From Microbacterium sp. TPD7012 (lineage in GTDB: Bacteria > Actinomycetota > Actinomycetes > Actinomycetales > Microbacteriaceae): a stretch of 64,000 nt of DNA. Position numbers and translations under genes: made by a program. The DNA lies in assembly GCF_003075395.1 (NCBI RefSeq), contig NZ_QDFV01000001.1:310001-374000 (forward strand), written 5' to 3'. Within the stretch, counting starts at the first letter, position 1; every line of letters begins with the position of its first letter. The notes below the pieces were generated by a model that was not told where the DNA came from, did no database searches, and saw only the letters and a program-made list of their open reading frames with translations. This document shows positions 20,417-27,311 of the stretch, in pieces.

Positions 20417-21970
20417 ATGCACATCGGAATCGATGTCGGCGGAACCAATACCGATGCCGTGCTCATGGACGGCACCCTCACCCTGGCGGCGGTGAAGCAC
20501 GCCACGACGGAGGATGTCACGAGCGGCATCGTCCAGGCGATCGACGCCCTGCGGTCCGGGCACCACTTCGACGGGGACCACATCTCCGCCGTGATGATCG
20601 GCACGACGCACTTCATCAACGCGCTCGTGGAGGCCAAGCGGCTCGCGCCGACCGCGGCGCTCCGGCTGGGCCTCCCCGCCACGAAGGCCCTTCCGCCGCT
20701 CGTGGACTGGCCCGCCGGACTCGTCGAGGCGATCCAGGGCCGGAGCTACCTCGCCCACGGCGGCTACGAGTTCGACGGGCGGCCCATCTCCCCGCTCGAC
20801 CCGGACGAACTCCGCGCGCACGCCGCTGACATGCGCGCCAACGGCATCCGCTCCGTCGCCATCTCTTCAGTCTTCAGCCCGGTCAATCACGACCTGGAGG
20901 TCGAGGCGGCGCAGATCATCGCCGAGGAGCTCGGCGATGACGTCGCCATCTCGCTCTCTCATGAGATCGGACGGATCGGGCTCCTCGAGCGGGAGAACGC
21001 CACGATCATCAACGCCGCCCTGCGCGAGCTCGCGTCGGAGATCGTCGACGGCCTCACGGCCGCGGTGCGCCGGCAGGGGATCGAGGCCCCGATCTTCCTC
21101 AGCCAGAACGACGGCACGCTGATGGACGAGGACTACGTGCGCCTGTATCCGGTGGCGACCTTCGCGTCGGGGCCGACGAACTCGATGCGAGGCGCCGCCC
21201 TGACCAGCGGTCTCGCGACGTGCGCGGTCGTCGACATCGGCGGTACCACCACCGACATCGGACTGCTCATCAACGGCTTCCCCCGCGAGACGGCGAACGA
21301 GGTGAAGGTGGCCGGCATCCGCACCAACTTCCGGATGCCGGATGTGCTGTCCATCGGAATCGGCGGCGGATCCATCGTCGACGAGGAGACCGGCGAGGTG
21401 GGGCCGGAATCCGTGGGCTACCGGCTCACGACCGAGGCTCTCGTCTTCGGCGGGTCGACGCTCACCGCGACCGACATCGCCGTCGCAGCCGGTCGGGCCG
21501 ACATCGGCGACGCCTCGAAGGTCGCTCACCTCGATCGCGCGTTCGTCGAGCGGGTGCTCGAGCGGATCGGCGAGCGGGTCGCTGAGGCGGTGGATCGCAT
21601 GCGCACCTCGCCCGAGCCGATCCCGGTGGTCGCCGTCGGTGGCGGATCGATCCTCGTCTCCGGCGAGCTGCCGATCTTCGGTGCCGTGCAGCGGCCCGAG
21701 AACTACGCGGTCGCGAACGCGATCGGCGCCTCCATCGCCCAGGTCGGCGGCGAGATCGACAAGGTCTACGCGATCGAGCCCGGTCGCCGCGAGGAGGCCA
21801 TCGCCGCGGTGCGGGCGGAAGCCGTCGACAAGGCCATCGCCGCCGGCGCCTTCCCCGCCTCGGTCGACATCGTCGACTTCGACGAGGTCCCGATCCCGTA
21901 TCTCCCCGGCAACGCCACCCGCATCCGGGTCAAGGCCGTGGGCGACCTCGACATGGGCGGTGTGCGATGA
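20417..21970 (+). CDS. Hydantoinase/oxoprolinase family protein (HyuA type)
   Basis: A 517-residue member of the hydantoinase A/oxoprolinase family, which uses ATP to open five-membered cyclic amides. N-terminal MHIGIDVGGTNTDAVLMDG is the phosphate-binding start of the actin-like fold. The second phosphate loop is VVDIGGTTTDIGLL, then GIGGGSIVDEETG and VAVGGGSIL. The protein is shorter than full HyuA-HyuB fusions, and no separate HyuB gene is present; DUF917 genes take that place. Its stop overlaps the next start by 4 bases. Confidence 0.9.
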   Translation: MHIGIDVGGTNTDAVLMDGTLTLAAVKHATTEDVTSGIVQAIDALRSGHHFDGDHISAVMIGTTHFINALVEAKRLAPTAALRLGLPATKALPPLVDWPAGLVEAIQGRSYLAHGGYEFDGRPISPLDPDELRAHAADMRANGIRSVAISSVFSPVNHDLEVEAAQIIAEELGDDVAISLSHEIGRIGLLERENATIINAALRELASEIVDGLTAAVRRQGIEAPIFLSQNDGTLMDEDYVRLYPVATFASGPTNSMRGAALTSGLATCAVVDIGGTTTDIGLLINGFPRETANEVKVAGIRTNFRMPDVLSIGIGGGSIVDEETGEVGPESVGYRLTTEALVFGGSTLTATDIAVAAGRADIGDASKVAHLDRAFVERVLERIGERVAEAVDRMRTSPEPIPVVAVGGGSILVSGELPIFGAVQRPENYAVANAIGASIAQVGGEIDKVYAIEPGRREEAIAAVRAEAVDKAIAAGAFPASVDIVDFDEVPIPYLPGNATRIRVKAVGDLDMGGVR

Positions 21971-23061
21971 GCTGGACGATCACCCGCGACCTGATCCCCG
22001 GGCTCGCCCGCGGTGCCGCCGTGCTCGGCACGGGCGGCGGCGGCGACCCGTACATCGGTGCCCTGCTCGCCTCGCAGGCCCTGCGCCTGCACGGCGATGT
22101 CACGGTCGTGTCGCTCGACGAGGTGCCGGACGACGCGCTCGTGCTGACCGTGGCGATGATGGGTGCGCCCACGGTCATGGTCGAGAAGCTGCCGAGTCTC
22201 GACGAGGTCACCGCCCCGGTGCGAGCGCTGGGGGCGGCCCTCGGCCGCGCCGTCACGCACATCGCGTGCGCGGAGGTCGGCGGCGTCAACTCGACGATCC
22301 CGATCGCCGCGGCCGCCGCGCTCGGTCTGCCGCTCATCGACGGCGACGGCATGGGCCGCGCGTTCCCGGAGCTCCAGATGGTGCTGCCGACGCTGTACGG
22401 CATCGAAGCGTCGCCGCTCGCGTTCAGCGATGAGAAGGGCAACGTGGGCGTGCTGAACACCGTCGACAACAGCTGGACCGAGCGCATCGCCCGCGTCGCC
22501 TGCGTGGAGATGGGCTGTTCTGTGATGATCTCCGGCTTCCGGATGTCGGGGGCGCAGGCGCGCGAGGCGCTCGTCGCCGACTCCCTGTCGCTGTGCCGCG
22601 AGATCGGCGAGGGCATCGACTCCGCGCGGGAGGCCAAGACGGATCCCGTCGCGCGGGTGGTGGCTCTTCTCGGCGGACGGGAGCTGTTCGAGGGGAAGGT
22701 CGTCGACGTGGAGCGCGCGACCACCACGGGCTTCGCCCGCGGCAGGGCGAGGATCGAGGGTGCGGACTCGGCACTGGAGCTCTCGTTCCAGAACGAGCAC
22801 CTCATCGCGACGCTCGACGGACAGACCCTCGTGACGACACCGGACCTCATCATCGTGCTCGACCATGACTCGGGTGAGCCGATCACGACGGAGGGACTGC
22901 GCTACGGGCAGCGGGTCCGCGTGATCGCCGCACCGAGCGACGAGCGCTGGCACGGCGCCGCCGCGCTGGCGATGGTCGGGCCCGGCTACTTCGGGTACGA
23001 CCTGCCCTCCCATCGATTCGACGGCCGGGTCGAGACCCTCGTCGAGGAGGATGCCGCGTGA
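21967..23061 (+). CDS. DUF917 family protein (S-methyl-thiohydantoin desulfurase-like), copy 1
   Basis: A 364-residue protein of DUF917, a family now linked to S-methyl-thiohydantoin desulfurase in ergothioneine breakdown. It has LGTGGGGDPYIG near the N-terminus, MGAPTVMVEK, EVGGVNST, IDGDGMGRAFPEL, FQNEHLIA and EPITTEGLRYGQRVRV. ATGA overlap with hydantoinase and GTGA overlap with copy 2 imply translational coupling. The cell substrate is not known; it could act on the ring compound before or with hydantoinase. Confidence 0.88.
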   Translation: MSWTITRDLIPGLARGAAVLGTGGGGDPYIGALLASQALRLHGDVTVVSLDEVPDDALVLTVAMMGAPTVMVEKLPSLDEVTAPVRALGAALGRAVTHIACAEVGGVNSTIPIAAAAALGLPLIDGDGMGRAFPELQMVLPTLYGIEASPLAFSDEKGNVGVLNTVDNSWTERIARVACVEMGCSVMISGFRMSGAQAREALVADSLSLCREIGEGIDSAREAKTDPVARVVALLGGRELFEGKVVDVERATTTGFARGRARIEGADSALELSFQNEHLIATLDGQTLVTTPDLIIVLDHDSGEPITTEGLRYGQRVRVIAAPSDERWHGAAALAMVGPGYFGYDLPSHRFDGRVETLVEEDAA

Positions 23062-24170
23062 GCTGGCAGCTGACCGGTGCGGATCTTTCCGACCTCGCTC
23101 GCGGCGCCACGCTGCTCGGAACCGGCGGTGGAGGGGACCCGTACATCGGCAAGATGCTGGTCGAACAGGTCCTCGGCGATCGGTCCATCACGATCCTCGA
23201 CCCCGAGGATCTGACCGACGACATGTTCGTGATCCCGACGGCGCAGATGGGAGCGCCGACCGTGATGATCGAGAAGATCCCGGCCGGCTTCGAGGCCACG
23301 CTCGCCCTGCGCACGCTCGAGGAGCACCTCGGGCGGACGGCGGATGCGACGATGCCGATCGAGTGCGGCGGCATCAACTCGATGATCCCCCTCATGGTCG
23401 CCGCCGAGACCGGCCTTCCGGTCGTCGATGCGGACGGGATGGGGCGCGCGTTCCCCGAGCTGTCGATGGAGACCTTCGCGGTCTACGGTGTGCACGGCTC
23501 CCCGCTCGCTCTGGCGGGCGAACGGGGCGAGCGCGTGATCATCGACACAGGGGATGACGACCGGCAGATGGAGTGGCTGGCGCGCGGGATCACCATCCGC
23601 CTCGGCGGCGTCGGTCACATCGCGGAGTACGCGATGTCGGGCGCGGATGTGAAGCGTACGGCGGTCCCGCGCACCATCTCGATGGCGCTCGCGCTGGGGC
23701 GGACGATCCGGGAGGCGCGAGAGGCGCATCGATCCCCGTTCGAGGCGATCGCGGCGACGCTGTCCACGACGCTCTACCCGCACGTGCGTGAGCTGTTCGT
23801 CGGGAAGGTGACCGACGTGGAGCGCCGCACGACCGAGGGGTTCGCCAGAGGCACCGCGATCGTCTCGGCATCCGATCCGTCGAGTGACGACCGTCTGGAG
23901 ATCTCCTTCCAGAACGAGAACCTCATCGCGCGCCGCAACGGCGAGGTGGTCGCCATCGTGCCCGACCTGATCTGCGTGGTGGACCACGAGTCCGCGGAGC
24001 CGATCACGACGGAGGGGCTGCGCTACGGGCAGCGCGTGCGCGTGCTCGGCATCTCGACGCCGGAGATGATGCGCACGCCGGAGGCTCTGCAGGCATTCGG
24101 GCCCGGGGCGTTCGGGTTGACCGAGCCTTTCTCGCCGGTGGAGGCAGCGGAGGTGGCGAGCCTAGGCTGA
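23058..24170 (+). CDS. DUF917 family protein (S-methyl-thiohydantoin desulfurase-like), copy 2
   Basis: A 370-residue paralogue of copy 1, with the same landmarks: LGTGGGGDPYIGKML, MGAPTVMIEK, ECGGINSM, VDADGMGRAFPEL, FQNENLIARRNG and EPITTEGLRYGQRVRVLG. The GTG start overlaps the previous stop. The two copies differ widely between these blocks, so the duplication is old and the two may form a hetero-oligomer or act on different substrates (inference). Confidence 0.88.
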   Translation: MSWQLTGADLSDLARGATLLGTGGGGDPYIGKMLVEQVLGDRSITILDPEDLTDDMFVIPTAQMGAPTVMIEKIPAGFEATLALRTLEEHLGRTADATMPIECGGINSMIPLMVAAETGLPVVDADGMGRAFPELSMETFAVYGVHGSPLALAGERGERVIIDTGDDDRQMEWLARGITIRLGGVGHIAEYAMSGADVKRTAVPRTISMALALGRTIREAREAHRSPFEAIAATLSTTLYPHVRELFVGKVTDVERRTTEGFARGTAIVSASDPSSDDRLEISFQNENLIARRNGEVVAIVPDLICVVDHESAEPITTEGLRYGQRVRVLGISTPEMMRTPEALQAFGPGAFGLTEPFSPVEAAEVASLG

Positions 24171-24174
24171 GCCC

Positions 24175-25212
24175 ATGCCGGTCACCCTCGATCTCGACAG
24201 CCTCCCCGCGCTGGCAACGGGGTTCGCGCTGCTCGGCTCGGGCGGTGGCGGCGGGACGACCATGCTCGAGCTCGTGCTGCGGGATTCCCCGGACTGGCCG
24301 ATCACCCTGCATGACGTCGACGAGCTGGATCCCGACCTCCCGGTCCTCGGGGCCGCTTTCGTCGGTTCGACCATCCTCCTGGGCGAGCGGCTCCCGGGAA
24401 CCGCCCCCTTCGCTCGGCTCATCGCCGCGGCGGAGCGCTGGTTGGGATATCGCGTTCCGGTGGTCTGCTCGCTCGAGGGCGGCGGACTCAACGGCCTCGC
24501 GTCGTTCACGCTGGCCGGCGAGCGGATCATCGTCGACGCCGATCTGACCGGCCGGGCCGTTCCGGCGCTCGACCAGATGTCGCTCCTGGTCGACGGCGTC
24601 CCGAACATCATCGTCACGTGCGACACGGGTGCCGGCGGAGTCGCCCTCGTCGAGACCGACCGCGCGCTCGACATCGAACGCATCGTGAGGGCGGCGACCG
24701 TCCAGGCGGGCGGTGCCGGCGGCATGGTCTTCGCGGGCTTCACCGTCGGGTCCCTGCGCGAGCACGCGATCGTCGGCAATGCCGCGCACGCGCTGCGGCT
24801 GGGAAAGGCGTTCCTCGGCGCCGAGACCGGGCCGCTCGATCATCTGGCCGGGACGCTGGGCGGGCGGCTGCTCGCGGAGGGGCGCATCACCGCGATCGAG
24901 ATCGACGAGCGGGATCCGCACGTCACCGTCTTCGGAATCGAGGGGAGCGCGGGCGAGGTGCACAGACTCGTGGCCCGGTCCGAGAGCCTCGCGCTGATGA
25001 CCGACGGAAGGCTCGAGGCCGCAGCCCCGGATCTGGTGGTCGTGCTCGACGCGATCTCGCGCGACATCCTCGAGGTCCCCAGTCTGTCGATGGGCCGGTA
25101 CGTCGCCGTGATGCAGCTGGATGGACCGGCGTGGTGGTCGCACTCCACCGAGCGCCTTCGCCATGTGGTCCCCTCGGTCTACGGGCTGGATGAATTGGAC
25201 GGCCTCTCATGA
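24175..25212 (+). CDS. DUF917 family protein, divergent copy 3
   Basis: A 345-residue third paralogue, shorter and more divergent. The N-terminal loop reads LGSGGGGGTTMLEL, so the DPY residues shared by copies 1 and 2 are gone. The second block is VDADLTGRAVPALDQM where the others have DGMGRAFPEL. The EPITTEGLRYG segment is replaced by DILEVPSLSMGRYV. The gene starts 5 bp after copy 2 and overlaps pucR by 4 bases. It may be a regulatory or structural subunit; enzymatic activity is doubtful. Confidence 0.8.
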   Translation: MPVTLDLDSLPALATGFALLGSGGGGGTTMLELVLRDSPDWPITLHDVDELDPDLPVLGAAFVGSTILLGERLPGTAPFARLIAAAERWLGYRVPVVCSLEGGGLNGLASFTLAGERIIVDADLTGRAVPALDQMSLLVDGVPNIIVTCDTGAGGVALVETDRALDIERIVRAATVQAGGAGGMVFAGFTVGSLREHAIVGNAAHALRLGKAFLGAETGPLDHLAGTLGGRLLAEGRITAIEIDERDPHVTVFGIEGSAGEVHRLVARSESLALMTDGRLEAAAPDLVVVLDAISRDILEVPSLSMGRYVAVMQLDGPAWWSHSTERLRHVVPSVYGLDELDGLS

Positions 25213-26717
25213 GCGACGCCCTCCTGCTGAGCGCCCTGCTCGCCCATCCCGAGAACGGGGGCGTCCGTGCGATCGCCGGACCGGAGGATGTCGAGTGGAC
25301 CGGCGTCGTCGTGGAGTCGGACGAGACCCTGCTGCCGTCGGACGGTGCCGGGCGCCTGGTCATCCTCACCGAGTCGCCGCCCGACCGCTCCTGGCAGCAG
25401 GACGCGCTCATCCGCCGCACGCGCGATCGCGGCTTCCGGGCACTCGCGGTGCCCCGCGCCGAGGGGTTCGGCCCGGGTACCCGCGCGCTCGCCGCGCGGC
25501 TCGGGTTCACCGTGCTGCACGTCGATCGACCGATCCTGCTGGCGAAGGCCTGCTGGCAGCTGGTCGAAGCGCGCGATGCGCTCGCCCTGCACTACGTGCG
25601 GAAGGTCGCGCAGTCGATCGAGTACCACGCGGACAGCCTTGCCGACCTGCTCCGCCACCTCTCCACGAGCGTGCGGCACGGCGTCGCTCTGCTCGATGCC
25701 GAGGGCGTGCTGCTCGAATCCGGAGGAGCACTGGCCCCGGACGTGCACGCGTCGATCGATTTCGCCCCGTGGCTCGACATCGTGCGTGCGCCGGGCGGCT
25801 CCGCGGCCTCCGTGCGTGTCGACAGTCCGAGCAGAGAGGGTCTGCGACTGGCGTTCTTCGGCGAAGGCCTCGACGAGCGCCAGGTCACCGCGCTCGCGGT
25901 CGCCGCCGAGGTGGCGATGCCCGCCGTCGCCGCCCGGATCCTGATCGACGAGGTGGAGGAGGTCAACGACGCCTCGGTGTCGTCGGGAGTGCTGCGGGAT
26001 TTCGTCGATCTGCGCGGCACACCGGATCTCGATGTGGAGCGCCGCATGCTCGAGCGCGGATGGCGGACGAGCGGATACCACCTCGGCTTCCGGCTCATCG
26101 GGCGCACCCGTGTGGACGCGCTCCAGCTCCTCCGTTTCGTGATCGGCGAGCTCGGTCGCATCTCCGTCGATTCGCACGCGACCACGGGTGGTCGCGGCGT
26201 GACCGGCTGGCTGACCTTCACCGAGCCGCCGGCGCCGCCGCAGATCGAGCAGTGCGTGGCGGCCCTGCGGGAGCTCCACGTCGCCGCCCGACGCTCGTTC
26301 AACGTCGCGACCGGGGTCGGGTCGGTGGCGAACGGCTCCGCGGGGCTCACGACATCGTTGAGCGAGGCGTCCGATGCTTCGAAGATCGCCGTGAACCGCT
26401 CGGCCACCGGCTGGTTCGTGCGTGTCGACGGACTCGGGCTCGAACGGCTCCTGCTCGCATGGACCGGCAACGACACGTTCGTCCCGGCGGCGCAGTCGCT
26501 CCTCGCGCCGTTGCAGGAGGGACGCGGCGAGTTGTTGACGACCCTGTCGGCGTACCTGGATCATGAGTCGGCCCTCGCTCCGACCGCGGCCGCCCTCGGT
26601 CTCCACCGGAACACCGTCGCCAGTCGCATCCATCGCGCACAGGAGCTGCTCGGCGTGGACATGAGCGATCCCGAGGTGCGGTTGGCGCTGCATCTCGCCT
26701 GCCGCGCGGTGCGCTGA
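25209..26717 (+). CDS. PucR-family transcriptional regulator
   Basis: A 502-residue regulator with the PucR/CdaR layout. An N-terminal sensory part (about 1-130) and a middle domain end in the C-terminal helix-turn-helix at about 440-495: TLSAYLDHESALAPTAAALG and LHRNTVASRIHRAQELLG. PucR-type proteins regulate purine, allantoin and hydantoin breakdown. The ATG overlaps the stop of DUF917 copy 3, so the regulator is the last gene of the operon and probably senses its substrate. A TGTGCACA palindrome at 18894-18901, in the SDR-permease intergenic region, is a possible but weak binding site. Confidence 0.88.
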   Translation: MSDALLLSALLAHPENGGVRAIAGPEDVEWTGVVVESDETLLPSDGAGRLVILTESPPDRSWQQDALIRRTRDRGFRALAVPRAEGFGPGTRALAARLGFTVLHVDRPILLAKACWQLVEARDALALHYVRKVAQSIEYHADSLADLLRHLSTSVRHGVALLDAEGVLLESGGALAPDVHASIDFAPWLDIVRAPGGSAASVRVDSPSREGLRLAFFGEGLDERQVTALAVAAEVAMPAVAARILIDEVEEVNDASVSSGVLRDFVDLRGTPDLDVERRMLERGWRTSGYHLGFRLIGRTRVDALQLLRFVIGELGRISVDSHATTGGRGVTGWLTFTEPPAPPQIEQCVAALRELHVAARRSFNVATGVGSVANGSAGLTTSLSEASDASKIAVNRSATGWFVRVDGLGLERLLLAWTGNDTFVPAAQSLLAPLQEGRGELLTTLSAYLDHESALAPTAAALGLHRNTVASRIHRAQELLGVDMSDPEVRLALHLACRAVR

Positions 26718-26842
26718 CGGCTCGCGCCCCGAGTCGCGGAAACCAGACGGAGGTGGCGACCTGCGTCTATGGAGAGCGCCTCGGCAGCGGATCACACTGG
26801 GGACGGCGAGCGCACGAGGCGTCGCCTGCGTGAGGAGACGAC

Positions 26843-27010
26843 ATGTCCGACGAGAAGAAGATCCCTGCCGACGCCGGCGCCGGCGCGACAGCGTCCGCCG
26901 AACTGACCGACGAGCAGCTCGCCGAGGTCGCCGGCGGCAACGGCCATCCGATTCCGGGGCGGCACATGGACAAAGCCGAGATCGAGAAGGCCCTCCGCGG
27001 CGGGAATTAG
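26843..27010 (+). CDS. Small double-glycine-leader peptide, copy A
   Basis: A 55-residue peptide starting MSDEKKIPADAG. It has the form of a double-glycine leader (LTDEQLAEVAGG) like those cut by C39 peptidases or used for bacteriocins and other RiPP precursors. The putative core after GG is 23 residues, with PIPGRHMDKAEIEKALRG and no cysteine, serine or threonine, so it cannot form lanthionine or thiazole rings. GAGGAG is 7 bases before the ATG. No modification, protease or export gene is adjacent. Confidence 0.75.
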   Translation: MSDEKKIPADAGAGATASAELTDEQLAEVAGGNGHPIPGRHMDKAEIEKALRGGN

Positions 27011-27118
27011 CGCGCCCGACGCGGCAGAGGAGGCGACCTGCGTCTATGGAGGCGGCTTCGCCGGCGGAACACACTTGTTCTGCGAGTGCACAAGGCCTCG
27101 CCTGCGTGAGGAGACGAC

Positions 27119-27292
27119 ATGTCCGACGAGAAGAAGATCGCTGCGGAAGCCCCCGCCCCCGAAGAGACGGCAGCGGCAGAGCTGACCGAAGAGCAGCTCG
27201 AGCAGGTCGCCGGCGGCGGCGCCTACCCGGACCAGGGGCGCGGGGGTGGGAACATCTCCCTCGAGGAGAAGGTCCTCCGCGGCTGGAAGTAG
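27119..27292 (+). CDS. Small double-glycine-leader peptide, copy B
   Basis: A 57-residue paralogue of copy A starting MSDEKKIAAEAP, with leader LTEEQLEQVAGG and a core of about 24 residues that contains DQGRGGGNISLEEKVLRGWK. The leader is better conserved than the core, but both cores keep P-x-x-G-R, a later E-K, and L-R-G near the C-terminus. There is no cysteine. The gene converges on the ROK gene 19 bp away. Confidence 0.75.
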   Translation: MSDEKKIAAEAPAPEETAAAELTEEQLEQVAGGGAYPDQGRGGGNISLEEKVLRGWK

Positions 27293-27311
27293 AGGAAGCC
27301 GGAGGCCGAGG

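Follow-up and report, generated by a model that had tools for sequence, protein, structure and literature searches.

We consider it likely that pepA and pepB, two small tandem genes in the 64,000-nt stretch of Microbacterium sp. TPD7012 DNA analysed here (the window), encode short and probably unmodified peptides that belong to a two-component regulon and are cleaved and exported in trans by an NHLP exporter. The two genes would be secreted-peptide precursors in a regulon split over two loci. The remote locus is an island whose LuxR/NarL-type two-component system would activate a palindromic box, which would then drive pepA, pepB, a third gene (pepC) and the hlyD-ABC1(C39)-ABC2 operon of an NHLP-type RiPP cluster, with candidate weaker copies of the box preceding the NHLP precursor gene and two serine hydrolase genes. 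The C39 domain of the sole exporter is predicted to recognise ELTxEQLxxVAGG and to cut after GG, and the exporter would release unmodified cores of 23 and 24 residues. Once released, the cores would act outside the cell, where we lean towards signalling rather than killing.

Tandem peptide genes and their repeat

pepA and pepB are each preceded by their own box (GACCTGCGTCTATGG), and the order within each copy is the same: the box CGACCTGCGTCTATGG, CACACT, GAGGAG, the ATG, the leader and the core. The features, as read from the sequence, are listed below.

26757-26772, + strand: promoter box of pepA, CGACCTGCGTCTATGG, proposed response-regulator site, recurring at pepB, pepC, the exporter operon and a surface-protein gene
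26793-26798, + strand: putative -10-like CACACT of pepA, 20 nt 3' of the box
26832-26837, + strand: ribosome-binding site GAGGAG of pepA
26843-27010, + strand: pepA, 55-aa double-glycine peptide (leader 26843-26938, core 26939-27007)
27034-27049, + strand: promoter box of pepB, CGACCTGCGTCTATGG, proposed response-regulator site
27070-27075, + strand: putative -10-like CACACT of pepB, 20 nt 3' of the box
27108-27113, + strand: ribosome-binding site GAGGAG of pepB
27119-27292, + strand: pepB, 57-aa double-glycine peptide (leader 27119-27217, core 27218-27289)

Hexamers resembling CACACT follow many of 18 aligned boxes at about equal spacing, as judged by eye. The leaders are 32 or 33 residues long with VAGG at the end (...ELTDEQLAEVAGG in pepA and ...ELTEEQLEQVAGG in pepB, both finishing in GG), and the cores, NGHPIPGRHMDKAEIEKALRGGN with 23 residues and GAYPDQGRGGGNISLEEKVLRGWK with 24, contain no cysteine; their computed average masses, unmodified, are 2497.8 and 2587.8. 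The sequence-only reading had described two ORFs of 55 and 57 aa with double-glycine leaders and cysteine-free cores on a 276-bp repeat, and all of these were recovered. The repeat aligns in four blocks, 26750-26798/27027-27075 (84% identity), 26806-26881/27082-27157 (89%), 26874-26961/27153-27240 (73%) and 26984-27010/27266-27292 (89%). Its middle is thus less conserved than the 5' blocks and the final 27 nt, and its spacing varies from 276 to 282 because of small indels.

The pair is flanked by a PucR-type regulator gene (25209-26717; Pfam HTH_30) and, on the opposite strand, by a ROK-like gene (by reading), and no immunity-like gene was seen adjoining it. The Pfam scan in the window covered five ORFs, pepA, pepB and three neighbours. 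Upstream of the PucR regulator, window positions 21967-25212 hold three consecutive genes, the last two of which match S-Me-THD-like families. Two other readings of the conserved 5' region were rejected. As to a structured RNA, five Rfam matches were obtained at E<=10, all far below the gathering score, and single-sequence folds of seven 5' regions had no common fold by eye. For an upstream small ORF, the frames are unlike between the copies and the box also precedes unrelated genes.

A remote island with a single C39 exporter

When the own genome (4.08 Mb, 17 contigs) was searched with pepA, a third leader was found at C4:233478-233546 (E 9.8e-4), and the 5' region of pepA had a match immediately upstream of this gene, pepC (E 0.21). 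The pepC product consists of ELTDEQLAEVAGG followed by STAPSTPMPDANRMKPYPPWPGSLQSTETEPT, and in this genome (G000) the gene overlaps by ATGA a gene whose 113-residue product has two hydrophobic segments. Divergent to pepC lies an NHLP precursor gene (TIGR03793, 76.1 bits, cut-off 50.9). It is followed, in this order, by genes for a fused cyclodehydratase/YcaO protein (TIGR03882, 108 bits; TIGR03604, 281 bits), a SagB dehydrogenase (TIGR03605, 139.6 bits), HlyD (TIGR03794, 203 bits), a C39 peptidase-ABC protein (TIGR03796, 962 bits, cut-off 853) and a second ABC protein (TIGR03797, 795 bits), all of which score above cut-off. Farther along the island are a kinase/regulator pair, the surface-protein gene and a Peptidase_S13 gene, followed by two divergent beta-lactamase-fold hydrolase genes and a second kinase/regulator pair. 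The core of the island NHLP precursor, FYYPQLSRPEDYGKLGKK (L035 8837-9124, C4), has no Cys and one Ser, though YcaO and SagB genes follow it.

A PF03412 scan of the own genome identified one C39 protein, the NHLP exporter (121 bits), and no further one. The earlier statement that no export gene lies in the window therefore holds for C39 exporters, the sole PF03412 protein being encoded on another contig. The full-genome check for C39-peptidase exporters that had been proposed along with it led to this protein, whose operon bears the promoter box of pepA and pepB. Since the shared box links the pair to the sole matching exporter, the seemingly orphan genes can be assigned to a system.

Occurrence of the box

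Exact GACCNNSGTCYATGG occurs at five sites in the whole own genome, those of pepA, pepB, pepC, the exporter operon and the surface-protein gene, three of them in the remote island. The reversed pattern, used as a control, had no match in the own genome and three in all 13 genomes scanned. The box can be read as part of the palindrome CCATGGACC-NN-GGTCCATGG, and with this reading weaker sites appear before the NHLP precursor gene (two mismatches) and two hydrolase genes (one mismatch). Box-to-start distances in G000 lie between 69 and 104 nt (pepB 69, pepA 70, pepC 80, hlyD 81, NHLP precursor 89 from its two-mismatch box, surface protein 104).

With the consensus GGACCTGSGTCYATGG and at most one mismatch, exactly four sites each were found in G000, G250 and G116, at pepA, pepB, pepC and the exporter operon; the fourth lies between sagB and hlyD, upstream of that operon. 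Over the 13 genomes the scan gave 25 sites, compared with two matches for the reversed pattern. Twenty-one of them precede regulon-type genes or, in one case (G193), a lipoprotein gene, and no recognisable regulon-type gene lies downstream of the other four (G252, G273 C1, G182 C6 and G156 C3). A scan of 295 genus genomes with GCGACCTGCGTCYATGG at up to one mismatch gave 22 sites in 14 genomes versus 15 reversed-pattern matches over all 295. Three sites each are those of pepA, pepB and pepC in G000, G250 and G116. The 13 further sites sit in 11 other genomes. Three of them lie before pepC of G182 and hydrolase genes of G113 and G210, a fourth lies before a gene for a secreted protein in G113, and nine were judged unrelated by eye. 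In a family-wide sample of 299 genomes, also at up to one mismatch, seven had one match each, the own genome among them. A two-mismatch box at G113 C1:502031 (L081 6033) precedes a secreted-protein gene, away from the regulator locus.

Controls on shorter stretches were less discriminating. At up to one mismatch, two sites were found in the window alone versus 0.60 expected (12 of 100 shuffles reach two), and two in the 20-kb stretch L035 versus 0.18 expected (2 of 200 shuffles). A wider pattern with two mismatches gave two sites in the window versus 1.4 expected, with 0 to 8 for 20 permuted patterns; in the 35-kb island it gave seven versus 0 to 2. Because of the in-window controls, weak sites were counted only when they recur in relatives. 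It is the whole-genome counts and the recurrence that carry the weight, and the two exact boxes in the window are weak evidence.

Distribution of peptides and exporter

The pepA/pepB pair was found in three of the 295 genus genomes, a sample drawn from a larger group: the own genome, G250 of the same species, and G116. Both boxes are intact in G250 and G116, and this joint conservation argues that pepA and pepB are not chance ORFs. The pepB search matched six genomes at E<=0.01, from which G189, G208 and G255 were dropped (E 0.007-0.009, frames of 339-755 aa). A scan of 84,980 species, from which records of the own genome may be absent, returned four loci, in EST19A, one Chryseobacterium and two coriobacterial MAGs. 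A leader-profile search matched 20 of the 295 genomes at E<=0.01; we accepted the matches in G000, G250, G116, G182 and G156 and two NHLP genes of G273, set aside two internal to larger frames and four without the leader motif, and judged the remaining eight spurious on frame length and score alone. The leader search in related genomes suggested earlier recovered the pair in three genomes, and the search of the own genome added pepC as a third gene that shares the leader. The sequence-only reading had made its case depend on homologues conserved in relatives; these proved rare, two of the three genomes being of one species, but where they are present, exporter and box accompany them.

A C39 exporter (E<=1e-120) is encoded in seven of the 295 genomes, and all three genomes with pepA and pepB are among these seven. 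The chance of three falling within seven would be 35 in about 4.2 million if genomes were independent, which G000 and G250, as one species, are not. By PF03412, seven of the 13 genomes scanned have one C39 protein each. The exporter-operon box was also found in G250, G116 and G193. One contig of G250 carries both loci, with pepA and pepB at 1.280 Mb and the sites of the island at 2.011-2.024 Mb; the 731-kb separation is therefore not an assembly artefact. Both loci also share one contig in G116, about 0.8 Mb apart. G182 has pepC, its box and the two-component genes, and no C39 protein was found in its assembly (96% complete) by PF03412; the coupling of peptide and exporter is thus not strict. 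The core of the G182 pepC homologue (L077 9620-9793) consists of TP repeats and a conserved LKPYPPW end.

Two-component systems associated with the box

The island encodes two LuxR/NarL-type two-component systems, the second regulator being 88% identical to the first; the regulator genes lie at C4:243711-244376 (RR1) and C4:252713-253378 (RR2). RR1 has Response_reg and GerE domains, HK1 has eight hydrophobic segments (with its start codon chosen by eye) and HK2 has HisKA_3. Matches to the island response regulator at E<=1e-70 occur in 41 of the 295 genomes, and the regulator is at least 85% identical in nine (G000, G250, G116, G182, G210, G113, G141, G186 and G252). In G182, G210, G113 and G141, the box precedes a beta-lactamase-fold hydrolase gene adjoining this regulator, in genomes that have no C39 exporter, and in G186 and G252 two-mismatch sites occupy the same position. 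In G047, which encodes the exporter and a regulator of 76% identity, neither the exporter nor the precursor genes are preceded by a box within two mismatches; one site with two mismatches lies near the expected kinase start and one with three before the precursor gene. Gene neighbourhood and co-occurrence point to the island response regulator as the protein that may act on the box, which is guilt by association and not proof.

A second split cluster

G273 encodes an exporter and regulator at C2:532-541 kb, and no NHLP, YcaO or SagB match was found in this 19-kb exporter stretch. The leader-profile search located two NHLP precursors at C2:1,173.8 and 1,187.2 kb, with boxes GGACCTAGACCCATGG and GGACGTAGACCCATGG lying 79 and 80 nt before the ATGs (two and three mismatches). 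The first precursor gene is followed by YcaO and SagB genes, the three spanning 1170-1174 kb, and the second NHLP gene lies 13 kb on. The TOMM cluster is thus about 0.63 Mb from the exporter, with box-like sites at both (L076, L212, L213), so that a precursor-exporter separation bridged by the box seems to have arisen more than once in the genus.

In the exporter locus of G156, one short GG peptide (ELTDEELDSIAGG-DGAWGDEISRLRNGGIT) is encoded directly 5' of hlyD. Neither a TOMM or SagB match nor a box within two mismatches was found in this 19-kb locus, and no island-type regulator was found in the genome at E<=1e-70.

Properties of the leaders and cores

The pepA and pepB leaders match NCBIfam and Pfam leader models below cut-off throughout. 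With the TIGR01847 leader model (cut-off 15.7 bits) they score 13.2 and 13.7, the motif being visible by eye. With the NHLP leader domain (TIGR03793, about 77 positions, cut-off 50.9), pepA scores 12.6 and pepB 15.8 bits, and only the profile end, positions 63-77, is matched. A C-terminal leader segment with a GG site, as in NHLP precursors, is present, as can be seen by comparing ELTDEQLAEVAGG and ELTEEQLEQVAGG with ELSDEALDSVAGG of the island NHLP precursor. Cys, Ser and Thr are all absent from the pepA core in G000 and G250, and the G116 core has one Ser and one Thr; the pepB core has one Ser in G000, replaced in G116 by Pro, which leaves no Cys, Ser or Thr. Heterocyclisable core residues, as expected of a TOMM substrate, are therefore lacking in G000 pepA and scarce in the others. 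Considering the few modifiable residues, the missing NHLP domain and the G156 locus without TOMM or SagB matches, we think that both peptides probably leave the cell without modification. With GRAVY values of -1.18 and -0.97 the cores are strongly hydrophilic, which would suit a signal better than a pore former.

The earlier proposal of a cysteine-free, unmodified peptide with a distant exporter gains support from the sole C39 exporter sharing the box, but its claim of diversifying selection on the cores finds no support. Both cores are identical in G000 and G250. Between G000 and G116, pN/pS is 0.47 for pepB (core 0.41, from four nonsynonymous and three synonymous changes) and 0.95 for pepA (core 1.0, from seven and two), so the cores are largely kept between species; they are divergent only in the older comparison of pepA with pepB (cores 1.43, leaders 0.50). 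Counts are small in all of these comparisons. An old duplication with later retention of both copies would account for this pattern better than ongoing diversification.

Alternative explanations

pepA and pepB could form a two-peptide, class IIb-like bacteriocin, with the box regulon as a competition programme and immunity supplied by the co-regulated hydrolases or by an unlinked gene. In keeping with this are the two adjacent paralogous GG peptides, weak hits, under the cut-offs, of class IIb and bacteriocin leader models, and pepC of G000, since an ATGA overlap of a peptide gene with a small membrane-protein gene is typical of bacteriocin-immunity pairs. However, such a membrane ORF is present only beside pepC, with no immunity-like gene seen adjoining the pair itself, and the hydrophilic cores also speak against it; we regard a bacteriocin as possible but doubtful. 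Modification in trans by the island TOMM enzymes appears improbable. The YcaO/cyclodehydratase and SagB genes do lie in the box-linked island, and distally encoded TOMM precursors are known (PMC4603692, PMC2887384), but G000 pepA offers no Cys, Ser or Thr, the single Ser of pepB gives way to Pro in G116, and the 77-position NHLP leader domain is absent. That the genes are relics or spurious ORFs without function is very improbable: they are patchy in occurrence and pepA has a pN/pS near 1, but in three genomes neither gene is disrupted and each keeps its box and GG leader, the pN/pS of pepB is 0.47, and the cores are the same in both genomes of the species.

The box itself might belong to a different regulator, or to a sigma factor, controlling the same genes by coincidence. 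The regulator assignment comes from neighbourhood and co-occurrence, and G047 has a related regulator yet no clear exporter box. Against this, the box adjoins regulators of at least 85% identity across genomes, some of them without a C39 exporter, and it was not found at the exporter of G156, which has no such regulator; an inverted repeat would also suit a dimeric GerE-domain protein. We therefore think coincidental control rather unlikely. As for the signal, pepA and/or pepB might be autoinducing pheromones, exported by the RiPP exporter 0.7-0.8 Mb away and sensed by the 8-segment kinase beside it, the box switching on peptides, exporter, RiPP pathway and producer-protecting D,D-peptidase-like hydrolases. 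A pheromone regulon has a polytopic kinase with its regulator and a box before peptide and exporter genes, and these are present here (pepA, pepB and hlyD). Kinase/regulator pairs also occur in genomes without pepA and pepB, however, and since the two-component/hydrolase module is found without peptides or C39 exporter, the original signal cannot be these peptides. This speaks against kinase sensing of the exported peptide for the ancestral state, and we hold this pheromone circuit to be unlikely. Our preferred reading remains that of probably unmodified peptides exported in trans as members of the regulon.

Relation to known systems

NHLP-type RiPP systems in which TIGR03794, TIGR03796 and TIGR03797 make up the export cassette were described by Haft and colleagues in 2010 (PMC2887384), where precursors far from modification and export genes were already noted and leader conservation was said to follow the transporter. 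The own genome resembles them in its exporter, YcaO/SagB enzymes and NHLP precursor, all above NCBIfam cut-offs; pepA and pepB differ in their length of 55-57 aa, the missing NHLP domain, the near absence of modifiable residues and the promoter box as the link to the exporter. Streptococcus Blp/Com regulons combine GG peptides, a C39 exporter, a two-component system and regulator sites in promoters, and ComAB can serve BlpC, a peptide from another locus (PMC4739728). The own genome likewise combines several GG peptides with a C39 exporter, a two-component system and shared promoter sites, but the pepA/pepB system is actinobacterial, with a predicted GerE-type regulator, a palindromic box, an NHLP RiPP exporter and co-regulated beta-lactamase-fold hydrolases. 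Heterocycloanthracins have TOMM precursor genes distant from maturation genes (PMC4603692); pepA and pepB share the distance but are without Cys.

The double-glycine leaders of class II and IIb bacteriocins have their motif positions at L-12, L-7, V-4 and GG. The pepA and pepB leaders have the same layout and their genome a C39 exporter; in contrast, they fall below the model cut-offs (TIGR01847, TIGR03949), their cores are hydrophilic and no immunity-like gene was seen beside them.

An account of two Microbacterium isolates lists no RiPP for them (PMC10456417). Our literature search found no description of the peptide pair, the box or the regulon, and none of an actinobacterial NHLP exporter that also serves short non-NHLP peptides. 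Distant precursors, the NHLP export cassette and streptococcal GG-peptide regulons with promoter sites are thus known already; new are short non-NHLP peptides tied to an NHLP exporter by a shared box, and a regulon that includes envelope hydrolases. In RiPP and bacteriocin mining, precursors are usually sought next to enzymes or exporters, whereas here a box, not gene order, assigns two orphans. The related box at the second split cluster in G273 offers a cheap, testable route to remote precursors, and the role of short, probably unmodified peptides on an NHLP exporter becomes directly testable.

Hydrolases and surface protein

The beta-lactamase-fold hydrolase genes lie at C4:248431-252679 in the own genome (L036), with others in L077, L079, L080, L105, L106 and L107. 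They adjoin regulator and box even where the genome has no C39 exporter, and a Peptidase_S13 gene accompanies them in G000, G116, G182, G210 and G113. The hydrolase/regulator module is possibly an ancestral envelope-response or resistance module. The surface protein (box at L036 1241-1256, gene from 1361) has a sorting-signal-like C-terminus and no Pfam hit, and by eye its alternating Thr/Ser-rich stretch recalls beta-pore proteins.
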